Notes under the pieces: model-generated
Databases searched by the model: none
Seen by the model: the letters and a program-made list of their open reading frames with translations, nothing else
What the model was told of the DNA's origin: nothing
NCBI GenBank assembly: GCA_026129405.1
Contig: JAHCID010000006.1
Coordinates: forward strand, 1-64,000
Length of the DNA stretch: 64,000 nucleotides
Reading direction: 5' to 3'
Source: a bacterium
Lineage (GTDB): Bacteria > Desulfobacterota > Binatia > DP-6
Shown: positions 20,888 to 46,836 of the stretch, piece after piece
How positions within the stretch are numbered: position 1 is the stretch's first letter
Layout of the letters: every line of letters begins with the position of its first letter
Program-made: the position numbers and the translations under genes

Positions 20888-22321
20888 TCAGTGCGCGGCG
20901 TTCGCGAGGTCCATCTCCCAGAAGAGGAAGTTCGTCGTCTGGTCGATGATCTGCGTGCGGTTCGCGGCGTACGGGACGTGCCCGGCGCCCGGCCAGGTGG
21001 TGAGGAAGACGTCGAGGCCGGCGGCCGAGGCCGCATTCACGGTGTCGACGGCCCACTGGTACGGGACCACGACGTCCGACGTGCCGTGGAAGAGGAGCGC
21101 CGGCGCCTCGCCCGGGTTCGGGGTCGTCAGGATGCGCGCCCCGGAGAGCGACACCGCCGCCGCCACCGCCGCGTCCGGCTCCTCGTTGTTCGAGTAGCCG
21201 ACGTTCAGGGCGGTGATCGCGCCCGCCGACGTCCCCGCGACCGCGATGCGCGTCGCATCGATGCCCCAGGCCGCCGCGTTCGTGCGCAGGAAGCGGATCG
21301 CGGTCTGCGCGTCGTCGAGCGCCTCCCCGATGGCGATGAGGCAGACCGCCGTCGGTACCGACGAGGCGCAGCCGCCGGGCTCGAGCCGGTAGCTGATGGA
21401 CACGTTCAGGTAGCCCTTGCGCGCGAACACCGTCGCCTGGTCGACCAGCTCCGCCGACGTCTTGCTGCCCGAGGAGAAGCTGCCGCCGTGGATCCACACG
21501 ATCGCCGGCCGCGCCGTCACGCTGTCACCGGTCGGCTCGTAGCGGTCCATGAGCAGCGTCACCGTCTGGCCGGAGTTGTTGACGGCGCTGCCGTAGACGA
21601 TGTTGCTCGTCACCGTCGCGCCGGCGAAGACGAGGTCGCGGTAGCGCAGCGGCGCCGCACCGGGGGGCACGAGGTTCGGCAGGTCGGGCACCGTGGTCGA
21701 CGTGGTCGTCGTCGACGTCGTGGTGGTCGTGGTCGTGGTCGGAACGCACGAGGCCTCGCTCGACGGCTTCGTGTACTTGAAGAGCGTCGGCGTCGAGGTG
21801 ATCTTGCCGCCGTTCGCGAAGGCGACGCTGTACGAGTCGCCGCCGCCGATGGTGAGCAGCACGCAGCCGGTGCCGGTGCCGGGCGGGACCAGGGCCACCG
21901 CGGCGTGCTTGCCGTCGATGGCGACGCTGATCTGGAACGTCGTGCCGCGGCGCTTGATCTGCGCCGCCTTGACGGGGCCGTTCTCCCCCTTCGGGTCGCG
22001 GTAGCTGAAGCCCTTGGCGGCGTCGCCCGACCAGAACGGCTTGCCGGTGACGGCGCTCGCGCCGGCGGGCAGCGCGTAGGTCGCGGCGCTCGGCGACGGG
22101 CCCGTCAGCGTCACGGCGACGGTGGCGCCGGCGGTGACCGGGTTGCCGACGAGGGTGGCGTCGGTGGCGGTCTCCTTTGCCTTCACCGTGACCGCGCGCT
22201 TCTCGGGCGCGCCGGGACTCTTGACGGTGAGGGTCTGACCCAGAACCGTCTGATCCGCCGCGTGTACGGGCGGCAGCAGGGACAGGACGAAGGACAGGAC
22301 GAGCAGCACGCGACCGACCAT
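20888..22321 (-). CDS. secreted alpha/beta-hydrolase (carboxylesterase) with Thr-rich linker
   Basis: A 477-residue exported esterase. Signal peptide MVGRVLLVLSFVLSLLPPVHA. Residues 25-190 form an unassigned beta-rich module (QTVLGQTLTVKSPGAPEKRAV, AAQIKRRGTTFQISVAIDGK). Then comes a poly-Thr/Ser linker (VPTTTTTTTTSTTTTSTTV), and the hydrolase domain with oxyanion motif IHGGSFSSG, nucleophile elbow VAGTSAGAI, acid FHGTSDVVVPY and histidine WPGAGHVPY. The start at 22321 has a GAGGGGG ribosome site at good spacing; an ATG two codons upstream is too close. Substrate unknown. Confidence 0.85.
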   Translation of the reverse strand: MVGRVLLVLSFVLSLLPPVHAADQTVLGQTLTVKSPGAPEKRAVTVKAKETATDATLVGNPVTAGATVAVTLTGPSPSAATYALPAGASAVTGKPFWSGDAAKGFSYRDPKGENGPVKAAQIKRRGTTFQISVAIDGKHAAVALVPPGTGTGCVLLTIGGGDSYSVAFANGGKITSTPTLFKYTKPSSEASCVPTTTTTTTTSTTTTSTTVPDLPNLVPPGAAPLRYRDLVFAGATVTSNIVYGSAVNNSGQTVTLLMDRYEPTGDSVTARPAIVWIHGGSFSSGSKTSAELVDQATVFARKGYLNVSISYRLEPGGCASSVPTAVCLIAIGEALDDAQTAIRFLRTNAAAWGIDATRIAVAGTSAGAITALNVGYSNNEEPDAAVAAAVSLSGARILTTPNPGEAPALLFHGTSDVVVPYQWAVDTVNAASAAGLDVFLTTWPGAGHVPYAANRTQIIDQTTNFLFWEMDLANAAH

Positions 22322-36223: not shown

Positions 36224-36357
36224 GCGCGAGACTATTGCCGTGCGCGCGACGGACCTGCAAGGGCGAGCGGCGCGCCGCGCACGTCATCGCCGAGACCACC
36301 CCGGCAGGGACAGCTCGTCGGCGATGGCGTGTCGTCGGCGACGCGACGATGCGTGAG

Positions 36358-36713
36358 TGGAGGCGGGGGGAATCGAACCCCCGTCCGAAAGTGCGTCCCC
36401 GAGCGCGTCTACGTGCGTAGTCGGCGTACCTTGCTGCGTGTCGTCGCTCTTGCTCCCACCGACGGGATCGCCAGCAACCAGCCGGCCTTTGGTCTCGGCC
36501 CCCACCCGGCCGACGTGGCGGGGGCCCAGCCCGAGAAGATGACGTCTCGTCCGGCCTTACGGGCGCGGGTCGGGGAGACGTGGTCGCCTAATTAGGCAGC
36601 CAGTGCGTAATCGTAGTCGGCAGTTAAGCCGTTCTGTCCTTTTTGACGAGCGGAACAGCACGCCCGGCACGCAACGTTCGCTTCTTCACCCCCGTCGAAA
36701 CCAGGTCGCCCCC
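36358..36713 (-). ncRNA. ssrA: transfer-messenger RNA (tmRNA)
   Basis: On the minus strand the 5' end GGGGGCG pairs with the 3' end CGCCTCC, followed by discriminator A; CCA is not encoded. The T-arm reads GGACGGGGGTTCGATTCCCCC next to the 3' end, and the 5' region has the typical GGTTTCGACGGGGGTGAAG. The tag frame (36592-36621) reads Ala-Asp-Tyr-Asp-Tyr-Ala-Leu-Ala-Ala, then TAA. The ending ALAA is the degradation signal recognised by ClpXP. Length about 356 nt is normal. Its protein partner gene smpB is 8 kb away in the same window. Confidence 0.95.
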
Positions 36714-36761: not shown

Positions 36762-38522
36762 TCACTCCACGTAGCCGAGCGCGTGCAGCTGCTTGCGGGT
36801 CTCCGCGTCGACGTCGCTCGGACGAACGATGCCCGCGGCACCGTCCAACGTCGCCCAGTACGCCTCCGCCACGGCGGCGAGCGTCGGGTGCACCGTGCCG
36901 GGTCGGGTCGCGATGTCGACCGTCTCCCCGGGATCGGCTGCGAGGTCGTACAGCTGGTCGGGGCGACGCCGGCGGCGATCGCTCAGCAGCTTGTAGCTGC
37001 CGCTCCGCACGGCGAGCTGATCCTCGCACTGGACGACGACCGCGTCCGGCGCCCTGCCTCCCCGGATATCCAGCCCCGGAAGCGGCGGCTCGTCGAACGG
37101 CGGGCCGTCGGCGATGCCGGCGAGCGCCGTCAGCGTCGGCGCCATTTGCACGACCGAGACCGGCGCCGCGACGATCGCGGGCGCCGCCGTGTCCTTCGCC
37201 GGGCGGACGATGAGCGGCACACGGGTCAGCTCGTCGTAGCCGCGGATGCCGCACCCGTGCCCGCCGGCGCCGTGCTCGAAGAACGCTTCGCCGTGATCGG
37301 ACGTGACGGCGATGATCGTCCGATCGGCCTGACCGCTCGCCGCGACGGCGTCGAGGAGGCGGCCGAAGAGGGCATCCGTGCGCTCGACCAGCTCGTCGTA
37401 ATACGCCAGCAGCTTCGGCTGGCGCTCGGCGTCGTACCGCCACACGAGCCCTGCGTCGTCCCCCGGCGGGAAGAAGGGGCATCGATCGTGGGCTTCGTAC
37501 GTGTGGACGAAGAGGAAGTACGGATGCTCCGCCTGCGTCCGCACCCACTCCTCCGCCCAGCCGAAGACGGTGTCGCCGTCGAAGCGCCGCGGGTCGCACT
37601 CGCCGGCCTTCTGGTGCGGCACCTCGAAGCTCTTGAAGACGTCGAAGCCGCGCGAGAACGGGTGCCAGGGTCCGAGCCCGAGGGTGTTCGACATCCATCC
37701 GCCGCCCGTCATGGCGCCGGTCAGATAGCCTTCGTCGGCGAAGCGCTCGGCCAGCGACGCGACCGGCCCGAGGACGTCCGGCGGCGCAAGGCCGTCCGCC
37801 GCCTTGACGCGATCGAGCACGCCCGGGTGGCGCCCCCACAAGAGCGACACGTGCGACGGCAACGTCCAGTGCGACGGACTGTACGCGTGGGTGTAGCGAA
37901 CGGCCTCCGCGGCGAAGGCGTCGAGCCGCGGCGTGCGCGAGCGGCCTTTGAGCCGCGAGCCGACGTGGTCGGCGCGCAACGTGTCGAGCGAGACGAGGAT
38001 CACCGACGGCCGCGCAAGCGGCTGCTCCGGCAGGAGCACCGGATCGCCCCAGAGAAGCCGGCGCGGGCTGTCGCCGCTCGCCTCCTCGAGCGTCGCGTAC
38101 AGCACGAGGCGCGCGTCCTGCGAAATCGTCGGCTCGAGCGGCAGACGTAGATCGCGCCACGCGCCGGAAGTCGCGATCGACTCGCTGAGGAAGGTGGCGG
38201 GCGGGACGCCGTCACGCTCGATCCGCACCTCCGCACGCCAGCGTGCGGCGTCGCCCTTCGGCTCGAGGCCGAGCCCGACCCACAGCGTGGGCGCATTGGG
38301 CGCATCGGCGAGCGGATACACGATCGAGCTCGCGCCCGGAGGCAGCGTCGGCCGCACCTCCGATCCGAGCCGCACGGCGCGGATCGCCTGCTCGCCGGCC
38401 TGCCCATCGAGACGCACGGGCAACTGGCCCACCTGCCCGCCGTGCCGCGTCGGCTCGGGGGGCGACCATCCACAGCTGACCAAAGAGACGAGGAACACGA
38501 ACCGCAGAACCCGAACCCACAC
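36762..38522 (-). CDS. sulfatase-like lipoprotein, AlkP superfamily
   Basis: About 586 residues from a GTG start (38522), with the lipoprotein signal VWVRVLRFVFLVSLVSCGW (Cys probably acylated). The catalytic part starts VILVSLDTLRADHVGSRLKG. The nucleophile segment SHWTLPSHVSLLWG has Thr in place of the sulfatase Cys and lacks the Arg. VTSDHGEAFFEHGAGGHGCG completes the metal site. Ends in QLHALGYVE. Same subgroup as the 30.2 kb gene (WTLPS, ALGY tail), so probably a phosphatase or phosphotransferase-like envelope enzyme rather than a true sulfatase. Confidence 0.82.
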   Translation of the reverse strand: MWVRVLRFVFLVSLVSCGWSPPEPTRHGGQVGQLPVRLDGQAGEQAIRAVRLGSEVRPTLPPGASSIVYPLADAPNAPTLWVGLGLEPKGDAARWRAEVRIERDGVPPATFLSESIATSGAWRDLRLPLEPTISQDARLVLYATLEEASGDSPRRLLWGDPVLLPEQPLARPSVILVSLDTLRADHVGSRLKGRSRTPRLDAFAAEAVRYTHAYSPSHWTLPSHVSLLWGRHPGVLDRVKAADGLAPPDVLGPVASLAERFADEGYLTGAMTGGGWMSNTLGLGPWHPFSRGFDVFKSFEVPHQKAGECDPRRFDGDTVFGWAEEWVRTQAEHPYFLFVHTYEAHDRCPFFPPGDDAGLVWRYDAERQPKLLAYYDELVERTDALFGRLLDAVAASGQADRTIIAVTSDHGEAFFEHGAGGHGCGIRGYDELTRVPLIVRPAKDTAAPAIVAAPVSVVQMAPTLTALAGIADGPPFDEPPLPGLDIRGGRAPDAVVVQCEDQLAVRSGSYKLLSDRRRRRPDQLYDLAADPGETVDIATRPGTVHPTLAAVAEAYWATLDGAAGIVRPSDVDAETRKQLHALGYVE

Positions 38523-38670
38523 GCTCGAAGTGTGTCTCCCGTCTGCTGCACTCACCACCCGCGTGTGGCGAACAGTCGGAAGCAGGGAATGAACGACCGC
38601 GCACCTTGTCGTCCGCCACAGCACATGGGAACGCCGCGGCGCACCCCACGCAGCGGCGGGCGCGCCGGCC

Positions 38671-38695
38671 CCTCGGCGCTGCCGAGGCGCCGAGG
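38671..38695 (-). terminator. stem-loop after acetolactate synthase gene
   Basis: CCTCGGCG (38671-38678) and CGCCGAGG (38688-38695) form an 8-pair hairpin with a 9-base loop, 24 bases past the stop of the acetolactate synthase gene. No T-run follows on the minus strand, so an intrinsic terminator is only possible. Confidence 0.35.
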
Positions 38696-38718
38696 CCCGT
38701 TTCCGTTCCGCGCCGGCA

Positions 38719-40386
38719 TCATGGAGCCGCCTCCAGCATCTCGCGGTTCGCTGCCCCGGGCGGCACCATCGGCCACACCTTCTCTTCGTGCAGCACCGGC
38801 ACACGCACGAGGCTCGGACCAGGGGTCCCGAGCGCGCGGGCGAGCGTGCCGATCGGGTCGTCCGACGCGCCCATGTCCCAGGCCGACACGCCGAAGCCGC
38901 GCGCGATCGCGACGAAGTCGGGCTCGCGCCGGAAGCGCGAGGCGTGGAAGCGGCCGCCGTAGAACAGCTCCTGCTGCTGGCGCACGAGCCCCAGGTGACC
39001 GTTGTCGAGCACGACCACCGTCACCGACACGCCCTCCTCCGCCGCCGTGCCCAGCTCCTGGAGATTCATCAGCACGCTGCCGTCGCCGGTGAAGCACACC
39101 ACGCGGCGCTCCGGGCACGCGAGCGCCGCACCGATGGCCGCGGGCACGCCGAAGCCCATCGTCCCGAGGCCTCCCGAGGTGAGCCAGCGCCGCGGACGCG
39201 ACAGCGGGTAGGCCTGCGCCACCCACATCTGGTGCTGTCCCACGTCGGTCGCGACCAGGTCGTCGGGCTCGAGCAGACCGCCGACGGCGCGGATGAGGCC
39301 GTACACCGCGCGCGGATCGTCGGCTCCCGGGGTGGCGAGCGGATGGCGCGTGCGCAGCTCGCTCAGCCGCGCCCGCCAGGCGGGGCGCGGCGCAGGCCGC
39401 ACGCGCGTCGTCAGCTCCGCGAGCACGGCGCCCACGTCGGCACGGATGCCCACGGTCGGACGCACGAGCTTGCCCAGCTCGCGCGCATCGATGTCGACGT
39501 GGACGATGTGCGCGTGCGGCGCGAACTCGGAGAGCTTGCCGGTGGCGCGGTCGTCGAAGCGCACGCCGAGCCCGAGCAGCAGATCGCACTCGTCCAGCAC
39601 CATGTTCGTGCAGCGCGCCGCGTGCATCCCGACCATACCCAGCCAGAGCGGATGGTCGGGCGGCAACACGCCCAGCCCGTGCAGCGTCGCGGCGACGGGG
39701 ACGGTCGCACGCTCGGCGAGCATGCGCACGAGGTCGCTCGCACCGGCGGCGACGACGCCGGCGCCGACGAGCATCGTCGGCCGCTCCGCGGCCTCGAGCA
39801 GCGCCAGCGCACGGCTCATCGCGTCCTCCGACGCGATCGGCGGCGGGTCGCTCGTCGCCGGCGCCGGCAGCGGCCCCACGTCGATCGATTCGAGCTGCAC
39901 GTCCTTGGGCACGTCGAGCACGACCGGCCCGCGGCGGCCCGAGGTCGCGAGGCGGAAGGCCTCGGGCACCGCCTCGACCAGCTCGGCCGCAGAGCGCACC
40001 TGGCGCACGTGCTTCGTGATCGGCTCGGCGAGACCCGGCGTGTCGATCTCCTGGAACGCGTTCGTCCCGAGCAGCGCCCGCGGCACCTGGCCGGTGATGG
40101 CCACCAGCGGGATCGAGTCCATGTGCGCGTCGGCGAGCGCGGTGACGAGGTTCGTCGCCCCCGGACCCGAGCTGGCGAGACACGCCGCCGCGCGCCCGCT
40201 CGCCCGCGCCATGCCCTGGGCGATGAAGCCCGCACCCTGCTCGTGCCGTGCGAGGACGTGGCGGATGCCGCTCGTCCGCAGGGCGTCGTAGAGCGGCAGG
40301 TTGGCGCCGCCGGGGATGCCGGCGACCGTGGTCACGCCCTGCCGTTCCAGCAGCCGCGTGATGAGTCCCGCGCCCGTCGTCTTCAT
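38719..40386 (-). CDS. ilvB: acetolactate synthase large subunit
   Basis: A 555-residue thiamine-diphosphate enzyme that condenses pyruvate to acetolactate (Val/Leu) or with 2-oxobutyrate (Ile). The N-terminus GVTTVAGIPGGANLPLYDALR and the catalytic Glu in RHEQGAGFIAQGMARASG are present. The FAD/central domain follows (AATLHGLGVLPPDHPLWLGM), and the TPP-binding motif is FTGDGSVLMNLQELGTAAEEGVSVTVVVLDN. No small regulatory subunit gene (ilvN/ilvH) lies next to it. A Val-rich leader peptide and terminator lie upstream, which supports a biosynthetic role. Confidence 0.9.
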   Translation of the reverse strand: MKTTGAGLITRLLERQGVTTVAGIPGGANLPLYDALRTSGIRHVLARHEQGAGFIAQGMARASGRAAACLASSGPGATNLVTALADAHMDSIPLVAITGQVPRALLGTNAFQEIDTPGLAEPITKHVRQVRSAAELVEAVPEAFRLATSGRRGPVVLDVPKDVQLESIDVGPLPAPATSDPPPIASEDAMSRALALLEAAERPTMLVGAGVVAAGASDLVRMLAERATVPVAATLHGLGVLPPDHPLWLGMVGMHAARCTNMVLDECDLLLGLGVRFDDRATGKLSEFAPHAHIVHVDIDARELGKLVRPTVGIRADVGAVLAELTTRVRPAPRPAWRARLSELRTRHPLATPGADDPRAVYGLIRAVGGLLEPDDLVATDVGQHQMWVAQAYPLSRPRRWLTSGGLGTMGFGVPAAIGAALACPERRVVCFTGDGSVLMNLQELGTAAEEGVSVTVVVLDNGHLGLVRQQQELFYGGRFHASRFRREPDFVAIARGFGVSAWDMGASDDPIGTLARALGTPGPSLVRVPVLHEEKVWPMVPPGAANREMLEAAP

Positions 40387-40444: not shown

Positions 40445-40477
40445 AAAAGCCCCTGCCGGCTTCGCGCCGGCAGGGGC
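40445..40477 (-). terminator. attenuator terminator upstream of ilvB
   Basis: Perfect 12-pair hairpin GCCCCTGCCGGC / GCCGGCAGGGGC (40449-40477) with a 5-base loop, followed on the minus strand by TTTT (40448-40445). It lies 59 bases before the ilvB start and 29 bases after the leader-peptide stop, which is the layout of a transcription attenuator. Confidence 0.8.
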
Positions 40478-40505
40478 TCTGGTCTCGTCTCTTCCGAGCT
40501 CCCCG

Positions 40506-40598
40506 CTACGACGCGCTGGGCACGACGACCCGCATGACGACGACGAGGACCACGACGAGTCCGGCGACGCGCGTCAGCAGATCGGTGCGAGGAGCCAC
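40506..40598 (-). CDS. valine-rich ilvB leader peptide
   Basis: A 30-codon frame from GTG 40598 with an AGGACGG ribosome site. Its end reads RVAGLVVVLVVVMRVVVPSAS: three runs of three Val codons with Leu between. It is followed by the strong terminator hairpin and then ilvB. E. coli uses the Val/Leu-rich IvbL peptide for the same purpose: ribosomes stalling at Val codons when valyl-tRNA is short would prevent terminator formation. The match is to composition and layout, not to IvbL sequence. Too short to be convincing on coding statistics alone. Confidence 0.75.
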   Translation of the reverse strand: MAPRTDLLTRVAGLVVVLVVVMRVVVPSAS

Positions 40599-40729
40599 TG
40601 CCGTCCTGTGTACCCGTGCGGCTCGCGGAAACGCAAGCGGTATCTGCGCGGCCCCGATCGTTCGGCTGCGCGCGCAGCCCGGCAGCGCCTCCCGGCCGGG
40701 CCGCATGCTTGCCTTCTCACCCCAGCGCC

Positions 40730-41524
40730 TCACGCGCGCAGGCGCTGCGCGAAGAAGGCGAGGATATCGTCGCGCGCCTGCACCGTCGGCTGGCCGGCCT
40801 CGTCGACGAGGTGCAACGTCACGACGCTGTGCGGGTTCTTCATGTGCTTGTTGGGTCCGGCGGCGCTGTCCGGCAGGACCCGCCCCTGGAAGCGATCGCC
40901 GAGCGCCGCCTCGTAGGCCGCGAAGCGCTCGGCGCGGCAGAAGGCGTCGCCGGCGAAGCGGTACGCGAGGACCGTCAGGTCCTCGCGCTCCATGCGCGCC
41001 TTCACCGCCGCCAGCTCGCCGGGCGCGATGTGCATGCCGCCCTTCTGGAAGATCGGCAGCGACGGCTGCGACAGGACGGGTGCGCGCACCGCGGGCTCGA
41101 GCATCATCGACAGCGCGAAGTTGCCGGTGAAGCACATGCCGATCGCGCCGACGCCGCGGCCACCGCAGAGCGGATGCGCGTGTGCCGCGAGCGCCCGCAG
41201 CCAGTCGATCACGGGGCTCGAGCGGTTCGCGGCGAGAGCCGCGAATTCGCGGCTGATGCAGGCACGCAGGATCGTCGACGCCCCATAGAGCGGCGAGATC
41301 GCCCGCCCCGGCTCGCCGAAGAGGCTGGGCATCCACACCGTGAAGCCGGCGTCGCGCACCCAGCGCGCGAAGCGCGCCACGTAGGGCGAGATGCCGGGCA
41401 TCTCGGCCATGACGATCACCGCCGGCCCGCTGCCCGCGACGAAGACCGGCCTCTCCACCCCGAGCAGGGACAGCGGGCGCCGTTCGAAGTCGTCGAGCGC
41501 GTCGTTGCGTTCGAGATCCGCCAT
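40730..41524 (-). CDS. dienelactone hydrolase-family protein
   Basis: A 264-residue alpha/beta hydrolase. PVFVAGSGPAVIVMAEMPGISPYVARFARWVRDAGFTVWMPSLFGEPG is the dienelactone-hydrolase N-terminal block with its conserved Glu. GVGAIGMCFTGNFALSM gives the nucleophile elbow with Cys in GMCFTG. AYRFAGDAFCRAERFAAYEAAL gives the Asp region. It lies upstream of the ilvB leader on the same strand and may end its transcription at that terminator. Substrate unknown (lactone or carboxylic ester). Confidence 0.85.
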   Translation of the reverse strand: MADLERNDALDDFERRPLSLLGVERPVFVAGSGPAVIVMAEMPGISPYVARFARWVRDAGFTVWMPSLFGEPGRAISPLYGASTILRACISREFAALAANRSSPVIDWLRALAAHAHPLCGGRGVGAIGMCFTGNFALSMMLEPAVRAPVLSQPSLPIFQKGGMHIAPGELAAVKARMEREDLTVLAYRFAGDAFCRAERFAAYEAALGDRFQGRVLPDSAAGPNKHMKNPHSVVTLHLVDEAGQPTVQARDDILAFFAQRLRA

Positions 41525-44030: not shown

Positions 44031-44504
44031 TCAGCCGCGGCGGCGCCCGGCGGCCAGCGCGCGGTCGATCTCGCGCTTCTCGGAGCGCTCGCGGATCGCC
44101 TCGCGCTTGTCGTGCATCTTCTTGCCGCGGCCGAGGCCCATCTCGACCTTGGCGCGGCCCTTCACCCAATAGAGCCGCAGCGGGATCAGCGTCAGGCCCT
44201 TCTCCTGCAGCTGGGCGCGCAGCTTGTCGAGCTCGCGCCGGTGGAGCAGCAGCTTGCGCTCGCGCTCGGGCGCGTGCCCGAACTGGCTCGACGGGCCGTA
44301 GGGCGAGATGTGCGCGGCGAACAGGAACAGCTCGTCGCCGACGAAGCGCGCGTAGGCGTCCTTCAGCTGGACCCGGCCCTCCCGCAGCGACTTCACCTCG
44401 CTGCCGCGGAGGGCCAGGCCCGCCTCGACCTTCTCGTCGATGTGGTACTCGTGGAAGGCCCGCCGATTGACGGTGATGTCGCGATCGTGGGCCTTGTCCG
44501 CCAT
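44031..44504 (-). CDS. smpB: SsrA-binding protein SmpB
   Basis: A 157-residue RNA-binding protein needed for trans-translation with tmRNA. RDITVNRRAFHEYHIDEKVEAGLALRGSEVKSLREGRVQLKDAYARF is the conserved OB-fold start. RERKLLLHRRELDKL and LTLIPLRLYWVKGRAKVEMGLGRGKKMHDKREAIRER follow as in other SmpBs. The ATG abuts the panD stop with no gap. Its RNA partner ssrA lies at 36.4-36.7 kb. Confidence 0.97.
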   Translation of the reverse strand: MADKAHDRDITVNRRAFHEYHIDEKVEAGLALRGSEVKSLREGRVQLKDAYARFVGDELFLFAAHISPYGPSSQFGHAPERERKLLLHRRELDKLRAQLQEKGLTLIPLRLYWVKGRAKVEMGLGRGKKMHDKREAIRERSEKREIDRALAAGRRRG

Positions 44505-44903
44505 CTACGCCGCCACCACCTGCGGGCCGGGAATCTCGGCCCGCTTCGCGCGCATGCGGTTCTGCTCGTCGACGAAGACGACCTTCGGCTCGTGCCTGCG
44601 GGCCGCGTCCTCGTCGAGCCAGGTGAACGCGGCGATGATGACGAGGTCGCCCTTGTTCACCATGTGCGCGGCGGCGCCGTTGACGCAGATGACGCCGGAG
44701 TCGCGCTCGCCCTCGACCACGTAGGTCTCGAAGCGGTTGCCGTTGGTGACGTTCCACACGCAGACCGCCTCGTTCGGGAGCAGGTCCGTCAGGTCCATGA
44801 GCGTGCGGTCGATGGTGATGGAGCCCTCGTAGTGCAGCTCCGCCTGGGTCACGGTGGCGCGGTGGATCTTGGCGCGCATCATCTTGCGAGTGGCCTTGGT
44901 CAT
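44505..44903 (-). CDS. panD: aspartate 1-decarboxylase
   Basis: A 132-residue pyruvoyl enzyme that makes beta-alanine from aspartate for pantothenate synthesis. Self-cleavage is expected between Gly27 and Ser28 in [49 protein letters not shown] and [11 protein letters not shown] match the family. Its ATG overlaps the panC stop (ATGA). Confidence 0.97.
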
Positions 44904-45754
44904 GGGTTGGTCCCCCCGAGGATTCGATTGTCGATCAGCCGCACGCCGCCCACCCACACTGCCAGGGCGAGCAACGCCGGGCCCCGCACCTCCGCCACAC
45001 CGTCGAGCGTCTCCGGATCGCGCAGCTCGGCGTACTCGAGCCGCGCCTGCGGCTCGGCCGCGATCACCCGCGCCGCCCGGTCGACGACCGCCGCCGCCCG
45101 GGTCTCGCCCACGCGCACGGCTTCCACCGCGGCGCCCAGCGCCCGCGGCACACAGCGCGCCGCGATCCGGGCCTCGGGCGCGAGCCGCTGGTTGCGGCTG
45201 GAGAGGGCGAGGCCGTCGGCTTCCCGAACGGTCGGCACGCCCACGACGTCGATGCCGAAGTCGAGGTCGGCCGTCATGCGACGGACGACCGCGAGCTGCT
45301 GGAAGTCCTTCTCGCCGAACACCGCCACGTGCGGGCGGACGGCGTGGAACAGCTTCGTGACCACGGTGGTCACGCCGCGGAAATGCCCCGGCCGCTGGGC
45401 CCCGCAGAGCGGCTCGGTGAGATGCGACACGTCGACCGCGGTGTGGAACCCCTCGGGGTACATGGCGCCCGCGGACGGTGCGTAGATCGCGTCGACGCCG
45501 GCCTCGCGGCAGCGGGCCGCATCGGCGTCGAGGGTACGCGGATACTTCTCGAAGTCGTCGCGTCGATCGAACTGGATCGGGTTCACGAAGATCGAGACGA
45601 CCACCTCGTCGGCGCGTGCCCGACCCTGGCGCATGAGCTCCAGGTGTCCGTCGTGGAGCGCGCCCATGGTCGGGACCAGCGCGATCCGCCGGCCCGCCGC
45701 GCGCGCGGCGTCGGCCCAGGCCTGCATGGCCCGGGGCTCGTCGATGATGCGCAT
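44900..45754 (-). CDS. panC: pantothenate synthetase (pantoate-beta-alanine ligase)
   Basis: A 284-residue ATP-dependent ligase. The HIGH-like ATP-binding motif occurs in [72 protein letters not shown] and the KMSKS-like segment [15 protein letters not shown] follow. Joins pantoate (PanB route) and beta-alanine (PanD) in the cytoplasm. The stop overlaps panD. Confidence 0.97.
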
Positions 45755-45759
45755 GGCGC

Positions 45760-46608
45760 TCAGCTACCCGTCGCCGCCGTGACGGGCTTCAGGGCGTGGA
45801 AGGCGTGCGCGTCGGTGGGGAAGACGCCGCCCTTCACCTCGCCGACGTAGGCCCGCGCCGCCTCGACGATGGTCGTGCCCAGATCGGCGTACGCCTTGGC
45901 GAACTTCGGCGCCCGCTCGGTGAGGCCGAGCAGGTCGTGGAGGACGAGCACCTGGCCGTCGCAGAAGACGCCGGCGCCGATGCCGATGGTGGGGATCGCC
46001 AGCTCGGCGGTGATCTCCGCGGCGAGGTCGAGCGGGATGCCTTCGAGCACCACCGCGCAGGCGCCCGCCTCCTCCACCGCGCGCGCGTCGTCGAGGACGC
46101 GCTCGCGGCTGTCGGCGCCGGAGCCGTGCCGCCGGCCCTGCACCTTGTGCCCGCCCATGCGGTGGACCGACTGGGGCGTGAGCCCGACGTGGCCGATCAC
46201 CGGTATGTCGCAGCTGCCGATCGCCTCGATGGCGTGCGCCATGCGAACGCCGCCCTCGAGCTTGACGGCCTGCGCACCACCGTCCTTCACCAGCCGCACC
46301 GCGCTCTCGACCGCCTGCGCGGCGCTGGCGTGATAGGCGCCGAACGGCAGGTCGCCGACGACGAGCGCCCGGCGCGCCCCGCGGGCGACCATGCGCGTGT
46401 GATAGACCATCTCGTCGAGTGTGACCGGCAGCGTCGTGTCGTGGCCCTGCACGACGTTGCCGAGCGAGTCGCCGACGAGGAGCATCTCGACGCCTGCAGC
46501 GTCGAGCAGCCGGGCGAAGGTCCAGTCGTAGGCGGTCACCATCGTGATCCGCTCTCCCGCTGCCTTCATGCGGCCCAGTTCGGGAACCGTGATCCGCTTC
46601 GCGTCCAT
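45760..46608 (-). CDS. panB: 3-methyl-2-oxobutanoate hydroxymethyltransferase
   Basis: A 282-residue TIM-barrel enzyme of pantothenate synthesis using methylene-tetrahydrofolate. The N-terminus is [49 protein letters not shown] carries the metal-binding Asp; [20 protein letters not shown] and [23 protein letters not shown] follow. The start at 46608 has an AGGAGG ribosome site buried in a hairpin, see the regulatory entry. Five bases separate it from panC. Confidence 0.96.
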
Positions 46609-46614
46609 GAAAAG

Positions 46615-46643
46615 AGCCTCCTGGACCGGGTGTCCGGGAGGCT
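46615..46643 (-). promoter_or_regulatory. RBS-covering hairpin before panB
   Basis: On the minus strand AGCCTCC-c-GGAC (46643-46632) and GTCC-a-GGAGGCT (46626-46615) form an 11-pair hairpin with one mismatch and a 5-base loop. The 3' arm contains the AGGAGG ribosome site, and CTTTTC then the ATG of panB follows. It can be read as an intrinsic terminator or attenuator (hairpin plus T4) or as an RBS-sequestering switch. No known riboswitch was recognised in the 190 bases upstream. Confidence 0.6.
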
Positions 46644-46836
46644 GTCGAAGCGGATCGCAAAAGGCTCGCGGAGAGCTCCCCCATCGGGACTCCACCTGCC
46701 GATCCCCGTCCGTCATGGATCGCGGTCCGCCGGTGCCGTCAGTGGGTGTGGCGTGCTCGCCGTGCGCGCGCTTGCGTCGTCTTCGCAGCTGCCCGTCTCG
46801 GTCCGTTCAATCCCCGCCCGGAATGGGTCGGGGTCG

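Follow-up and report, generated by a model that had tools for sequence, protein, structure and literature searches.

The DNA analysed here, a 64,000-nt stretch from a bacterium of the class Binatia (the window), carries on one strand a short valine-rich frame and a GC-rich hairpin directly before ilvB, and raises the question of whether these elements form an attenuator and how such an attenuator relates to the ivbL-ilvB system of enterobacteria. Our analysis indicates that the element is very probably an attenuator of the ivbL-ilvB type, in which a translating ribosome controls transcription. Attenuation of this kind is already known, and the element extends the known system to new lineages, placing the textbook attenuator of enterobacteria in a wider family that includes uncultured bacteria rich in GC. 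The points of interest are the breadth of this family, a predicted near-leaderless start and the fact that the window lacks ilvN.

On the minus strand, the elements follow one another in the order promoter-like pair, Val-rich frame, hairpin and ilvB (Table 1). The frame runs from GTG to TAG and translates into the 30 residues VAPRTDLLTRVAGLVVVLVVVMRVVVPSAS; the GTG is the presumed start codon, and the frame remains open further upstream. A sequence-only reading of the locus had described a 30-codon frame with ten Val codons in three triplets, and translation bears this out, the ten codons besides the GTG start being three VVV triplets plus V11. In the 343 nt upstream of ilvB, the densest run packs ten Val into 18 codons; in 2000 dinucleotide shuffles of this region, the densest run averaged 3.3 Val and never exceeded 7. 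Val is packed still more densely at 21693 on the plus strand of the window, but this stretch was rejected as a leader, being a low-complexity simple repeat; this GTC/GTG repeat (21692-21736) reads as poly-Val on the plus strand and as a Thr-rich sequence on the minus strand.

Table 1. Features of the ilvB leader region, in window coordinates
Feature	Coordinates	Strand	Description and evidence
Predicted promoter	40607..40636	-	TTGCGT (40636-40631), 18-nt spacer, TACACA (40612-40607); layout in class leaders
Leader peptide frame	40506..40598	-	30 codons + TAG, putative GTG start; translation, conserved leaders, Val density
Segment 1 (candidate protector)	40587..40595	-	GCTCCTCGC (codons 2-4), complementary to GCGGGGAGC, part of segment 2; MFE fold, partner permutation
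Regulatory Val codons	40521..40556	-	VVV-L-VVV-M-R-VVV (codons 15-26); relatives carry their Val block at the same position
Segment 2	40496..40515	-	CGCGTCGTAGCGGGGAGCTC, 5' side of antiterminator, overlaps leader stop codon; folds, covariation
Segment 3	40463..40479	-	GAGCCCCTGCCGGCGCG, common to antiterminator and terminator; folds, covariation
Intrinsic terminator	40445..40478	-	13-bp stem, loop GCGAA, TTT; hairpin -31.9 kcal/mol
ilvB	38719..40386	-	Acetolactate synthase large subunit, E. coli IlvB (AHAS I) clade; NCBIfam, Pfam, tree

The two arms of the hairpin, AGCCCCTGCCGGC and GCCGGCAGGGGCT, pair perfectly. The hairpin starts (40478) 27 nt after the end of the leader stop (40506), and 61 nt separate the last base of the stem (40448) from the ilvB ATG. 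The sequence-only reading had correctly placed a perfect GC stem after the frame and close upstream of ilvB, but its figures are off by a few bases, since it had counted 12 pairs in place of 13, and distances of 29 bases from the frame and 59 bases to ilvB. A search of both strands of the 64-kb window for perfect stems with 12 or more pairs and a T-run found this hairpin alone. Standard promoter and terminator scans, tuned to a more stringent consensus and to longer T-runs, reported neither the promoter-like pair nor the hairpin, which were identified by direct inspection and comparison; specifically, the terminator scan missed the hairpin because it requires five T in eight bases.

RNA folding for an antiterminator, a check proposed together with the sequence-only reading, revealed a competing structure that covaries across relatives. 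Across the leader stop codon, the consensus reads CGCGYCGTAGCGGGG and is complementary to CCCCTGCCGGCGCG, which makes up the 5' arm and loop of the terminator; antiterminator and terminator have this one strand in common and are mutually exclusive. Across 28 sequences, 87.3% of the antiterminator pairs are standard, compared with 37-49% when the partners are slid by 1-3 columns, and the outermost pair varies by lineage, being C-G, U-A or G-C. For the terminator, the paired fraction is 95.1%, and at four pairs both sides have changed in a compensatory way. The final residues of the leader peptide are probably conserved for the sake of their codons, which form the antiterminator. The leader region as a whole is highly structured (z -4.25). 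At the level of sequence comparison, the leader, the terminator, the antiterminator and their co-inheritance with ilvB are established; the transcription start, the stalling, the valine response and the role of segment 1 are inferred.

In the proposed mechanism, RNA polymerase would begin transcription a few bases ahead of the leader codon, closely followed by a ribosome that would translate the Val-rich peptide. When valyl-tRNA is plentiful, the ribosome at the stop codon would cover segment 2, so that segments 3 and 4 would form the terminator and transcription would stop before ilvB. When valyl-tRNA is short, the ribosome would stall in the Val blocks, and segment 2, left free, would capture the emerging segment 3, blocking the terminator and allowing transcription of ilvB. 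When the leader is untranslated, segment 1 could pair with segment 2, favouring termination.

We modelled the folding of the RNA left free at successive ribosome positions before segment 4 is present, assuming a footprint reaching 14 nt downstream of the start of the A-site codon. The antiterminator is formed with the A site at codon 16 (-35.6 kcal/mol), at codon 20 (-30.4 kcal/mol) and at codon 25 in the third Val block (-22.6 kcal/mol), and the energy falls off to -12.4 kcal/mol at codon 28 and -3.9 kcal/mol with the ribosome at the stop codon. In full-length folds, the terminator forms at every modelled ribosome position. These computations suggest that a stall in the first two Val blocks would let the antiterminator compete kinetically, and that a ribosome at the stop codon would remove it, in keeping with classical attenuation.

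Leader translation might instead act on ilvB through Rho or by translational coupling, the hairpin then being no more than a partial terminator, and a similar-looking ilvB leader in Streptomyces coelicolor indeed behaves in a way that is not classical attenuation (PMC1262725). We consider this quite improbable for the window, where the pairs of the competing antiterminator and terminator both covary and where the Shine-Dalgarno-like site of ilvB itself (GGAGGGAG, 40398-40391, minus strand) is well separated from the hairpin.

Under the attenuator reading, a further pairing likely involves segment 1, at the leader start, which in the MFE fold pairs with the part of segment 2 that follows the leader stop. 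Relatives show similar complementarity with changed letters, for instance TGTACTCCGC with GCGGGGTGTA in L118 and GTTTTCCGC with GCGGAAAAG in L124. When 18 loci are pooled, segments pair more strongly with their own partners than with permuted ones (p 0.0024); in single-locus shuffles the signal is weak (p 0.00-0.69), several loci not rising above their shuffles. In the untranslated state before segment 4, the energy minimum is the antiterminator rather than the 1:2 pairing, and energy alone does not decide between them.

Immediately ahead of the leader is the promoter-like pair, whose TACACA is separated from the start codon by 8 nt. All 13 aligned class leaders share this layout of TTGNNN, 17 or 18 nt, TANNNN, 8 to 10 nt and a start codon, where shuffles average 0.07 such cases and reach 2 at most; the comparison overstates the case, as the rule was set after the sequences had been inspected and the loci include close kin. 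L125 and L130, which have a longer 5' stretch, had been left out of this alignment beforehand. Standard sigma-70 spacing would put the 5' end a few nucleotides before the leader codon, and the leader transcript is predicted to be near-leaderless, a testable variant of attenuator-leader translation. Leaders that are leaderless or lack a ribosome-binding site are known, including peTrpL (PMC7298713) and, going by the title of a paper cited in PMC10272879, the ilvB leader of C. glutamicum. The leaderless trpL of Sinorhizobium meliloti likewise has its transcript start at or near the leader start codon, but it is a Trp attenuator of trpE(G) and not a branched-chain one (PMC7298713). A promoter downstream of the terminator, named with the sequence-only reading as evidence against attenuation, is not apparent; the 61 nt between hairpin and ilvB contain no TA dinucleotide and therefore no standard -10 hexamer.

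Among 148 genomes of the class, 19, including that of the window, carry an ilvB of the window's type. Six genomes of the same family lack it, so conservation was tested at the class level and above only. A terminator and a short leader frame lie upstream of ilvB in 19 of the 19 class loci, and at least three consecutive Val codons occur in 16 of these leaders. Of the others, L128 has VVLVV in place of a three-Val run, and L124 and L127, from one family, are degenerate and poor in Val runs. Typical leaders in the class end in EAVAP, EAIAP or EAVAS before the stop codon, and relatives with the same ending and stop-codon motif are found in other classes of the phylum. The sequence-only reading had suggested looking in relatives for conserved Val-rich short ORFs before ilvB and had held that their absence would tell against it; the leader frame proves to be kept in the class and to recur in other classes of the phylum. 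When relatives were searched at the DNA level, most matches were GTC-rich and due to chance, but four led to the leaders of family f7. Substitutions between leaders of close pairs show no strong bias to third codon positions, and the coding evidence therefore consists of the Val codons, the frame and the stop.

This conservation also bears on the idea that the hairpin is an ordinary intrinsic terminator serving the hydrolase gene upstream (40730-41524), the Val frame having arisen by chance in GC-rich DNA. The hydrolase gene does end at 40730 on the same strand, and terminators between genes are ordinary. The hairpin, however, stands about 250 nt beyond the hydrolase stop and after the promoter-like site, the Val density exceeds that of all 2000 shuffles, and the leader, stop-codon motif and antiterminator are kept before ilvB in many genera, which together make this explanation scarcely credible. 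Hardly any probability attaches to a metabolite- or ppGpp-binding riboswitch of the sort found before ilvB in some Firmicutes, because, although ppGpp riboswitches do precede some ilvB genes elsewhere (PMC10272879) and the window region is highly structured, an Rfam search at gathering and permissive thresholds gave no relevant family for the element, and its conserved parts are Val codons, leader stop, antiterminator and terminator, with no conserved aptamer core seen. The E. coli leader has no Rfam family match either, so the conserved core of the attenuator identified here (Val block, stop-codon antiterminator motif and terminator) could seed a new family.

The resemblance to the enterobacterial attenuator goes beyond layout. 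A profile built from 15 class sequences alone and run on 97 loci recovers eight of eight enterobacterial ilvB leaders (L035-L040, L042 and L044; E 1e-6 to 1e-5), all in the expected place, with no IlvI or IlvG loci among the matches listed. Furthermore, in a tree made by a quick method and rooted at the midpoint, the window IlvB and E. coli IlvB stand together across a 99% branch, apart from IlvI, IlvG and the second enzyme of the window genome, and enterobacterial IlvB is nested among attenuator-bearing IlvB proteins. The sequence-only reading had seen the layout of ivbL attenuation with a different sequence; the layout is upheld by the Val leader, terminator and antiterminator conserved before ilvB, while the supposed difference in sequence does not hold for the core, given the profile matches and the single IlvB clade. 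The class-only profile also matches before ilvB in Azospira (L033) and Accumulibacter (L034), where the leader stop has moved or the frame is altered.

Specifically, the E. coli leader, VVVVRVVVVVGNAP, shares with the window a Val-rich frame directly before ilvB, the stop-codon motif GCGCCGTAG, CCGGCGC in segment 3, the terminator and the spacing; it ends with GGCAATGCGCCGTAGGGACTGG, followed by CCCCGCCGGCGCAAACCGGGCGGGG. In contrast to E. coli, the window has a GTG start, Val in triplets, a predicted near-leaderless leader and no ilvN downstream of ilvB, and its segment 1 lies within codons 2-4, whereas the matching GGTCCCC of E. coli precedes the ATG. Gene and attenuator probably share a common descent, the simplest reading of this likeness; the alternative is convergence on a structural core.

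The window lineage does lie outside the classic enterobacterial setting, as the sequence-only reading had stressed, but ilvB attenuation beyond the Enterobacteria has already been described or proposed. Attenuation by a branched-chain-rich frame has been described in Corynebacterium; it has been proposed for the ilvB-OMG motif of various phyla and for Leptospira (PMC10272879), and also for Actinobacteria (PMC1262725), for M. tuberculosis (PMC13236596) and for Caulobacter (PMC4117421); we found no description in the literature of an ilvB attenuator for the window's lineage. The Corynebacterium ilvB-II, ilvB-OMG and Leptospira ilvB motifs share with the window a branched-chain-rich frame and a terminator before ilvB, although, compared by description, the Corynebacterium ilvB-II peptides differ in being mostly 15-17 residues long and of other make-up (PMC10272879). 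The ilvB1NC leader of M. tuberculosis (PMC13236596) and the actinobacterial leaders (PMC1262725) follow the same logic, a stall at branched-chain codons that decides between antiterminator and terminator, but the regulatory codons of ilvB1NC, compared here by logic, are LVVI, unlike the Val triplets of the window (PMC13236596).

The protein encoded by the window ilvB scores 621 bits against TIGR00118, the biosynthetic acetolactate synthase large subunit (cut-off 538), and its best model is PRK08155 at 831.7 bits, just below the cut-off of 870. In the window genome, contig C8 encodes another large subunit that exceeds the TIGR00118 cut-off, and contig C6 a single small subunit with ilvC after it. 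Of 18 class loci tested, 13 have a short ilvN of the E. coli type 3' of ilvB, and two of the remaining five run into a contig end; ilvN is a part of the operon rather than of the attenuator as such. No ilvN was found after the window ilvB (38400-38718), where a sulfatase gene comes next, and the small subunit of the window genome is of the long type only and is encoded 45 kb from ilvB. The window IlvB may be an orphan, or its partner may be this distant long small subunit. A broader and more tentative scenario, to which we give somewhat less than even weight, is that ivbL-ilvB-ilvN is an old self-regulated cassette spread across several phyla, of which the enterobacterial AHAS I operon would be a late, nested recipient, and that in the window's lineage its leader mRNA would be nearly leaderless, with the protector segment lying within the first leader codons.

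Around the locus, the minus strand of the window also carries panD, panC and panB in a row (44505-46716, read from sequence), about 4 kb from the ilvB leader; their pathway draws on a valine precursor. A tmRNA gene (36355-36713, minus strand, Rfam RF00023) and, on the same strand, an smpB-like gene (44031-44504) are present as well.

An RNA model built on segments 2-4 places its 16 best class matches all before ilvB, including the untrained G110, and it also recovers untrained loci in G054, G109, G012 and G009. The strongest match in the phylum that is not before ilvB, the untrained L191 (G222:C182:13987-14083), precedes a gene read from its sequence as ilvD, which is likewise a branched-chain gene; the leader there has spaced Val codons, LLGVGVGVRVLDAAVP / MNRDVHSPNTMLPIRLALLGVGVGVRVLDAAVP, and ends in GVGVGVRVLDAAVP before the stop. 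The weaker matches away from ilvB that were inspected (L174, L197, L198 and L203, about 40 bits and below) were rejected, as they look like ordinary gene-end terminators. Two loci, L155 and L065, carry two tandem Val-rich frames, each with a terminator-like hairpin, before ilvB-type genes.
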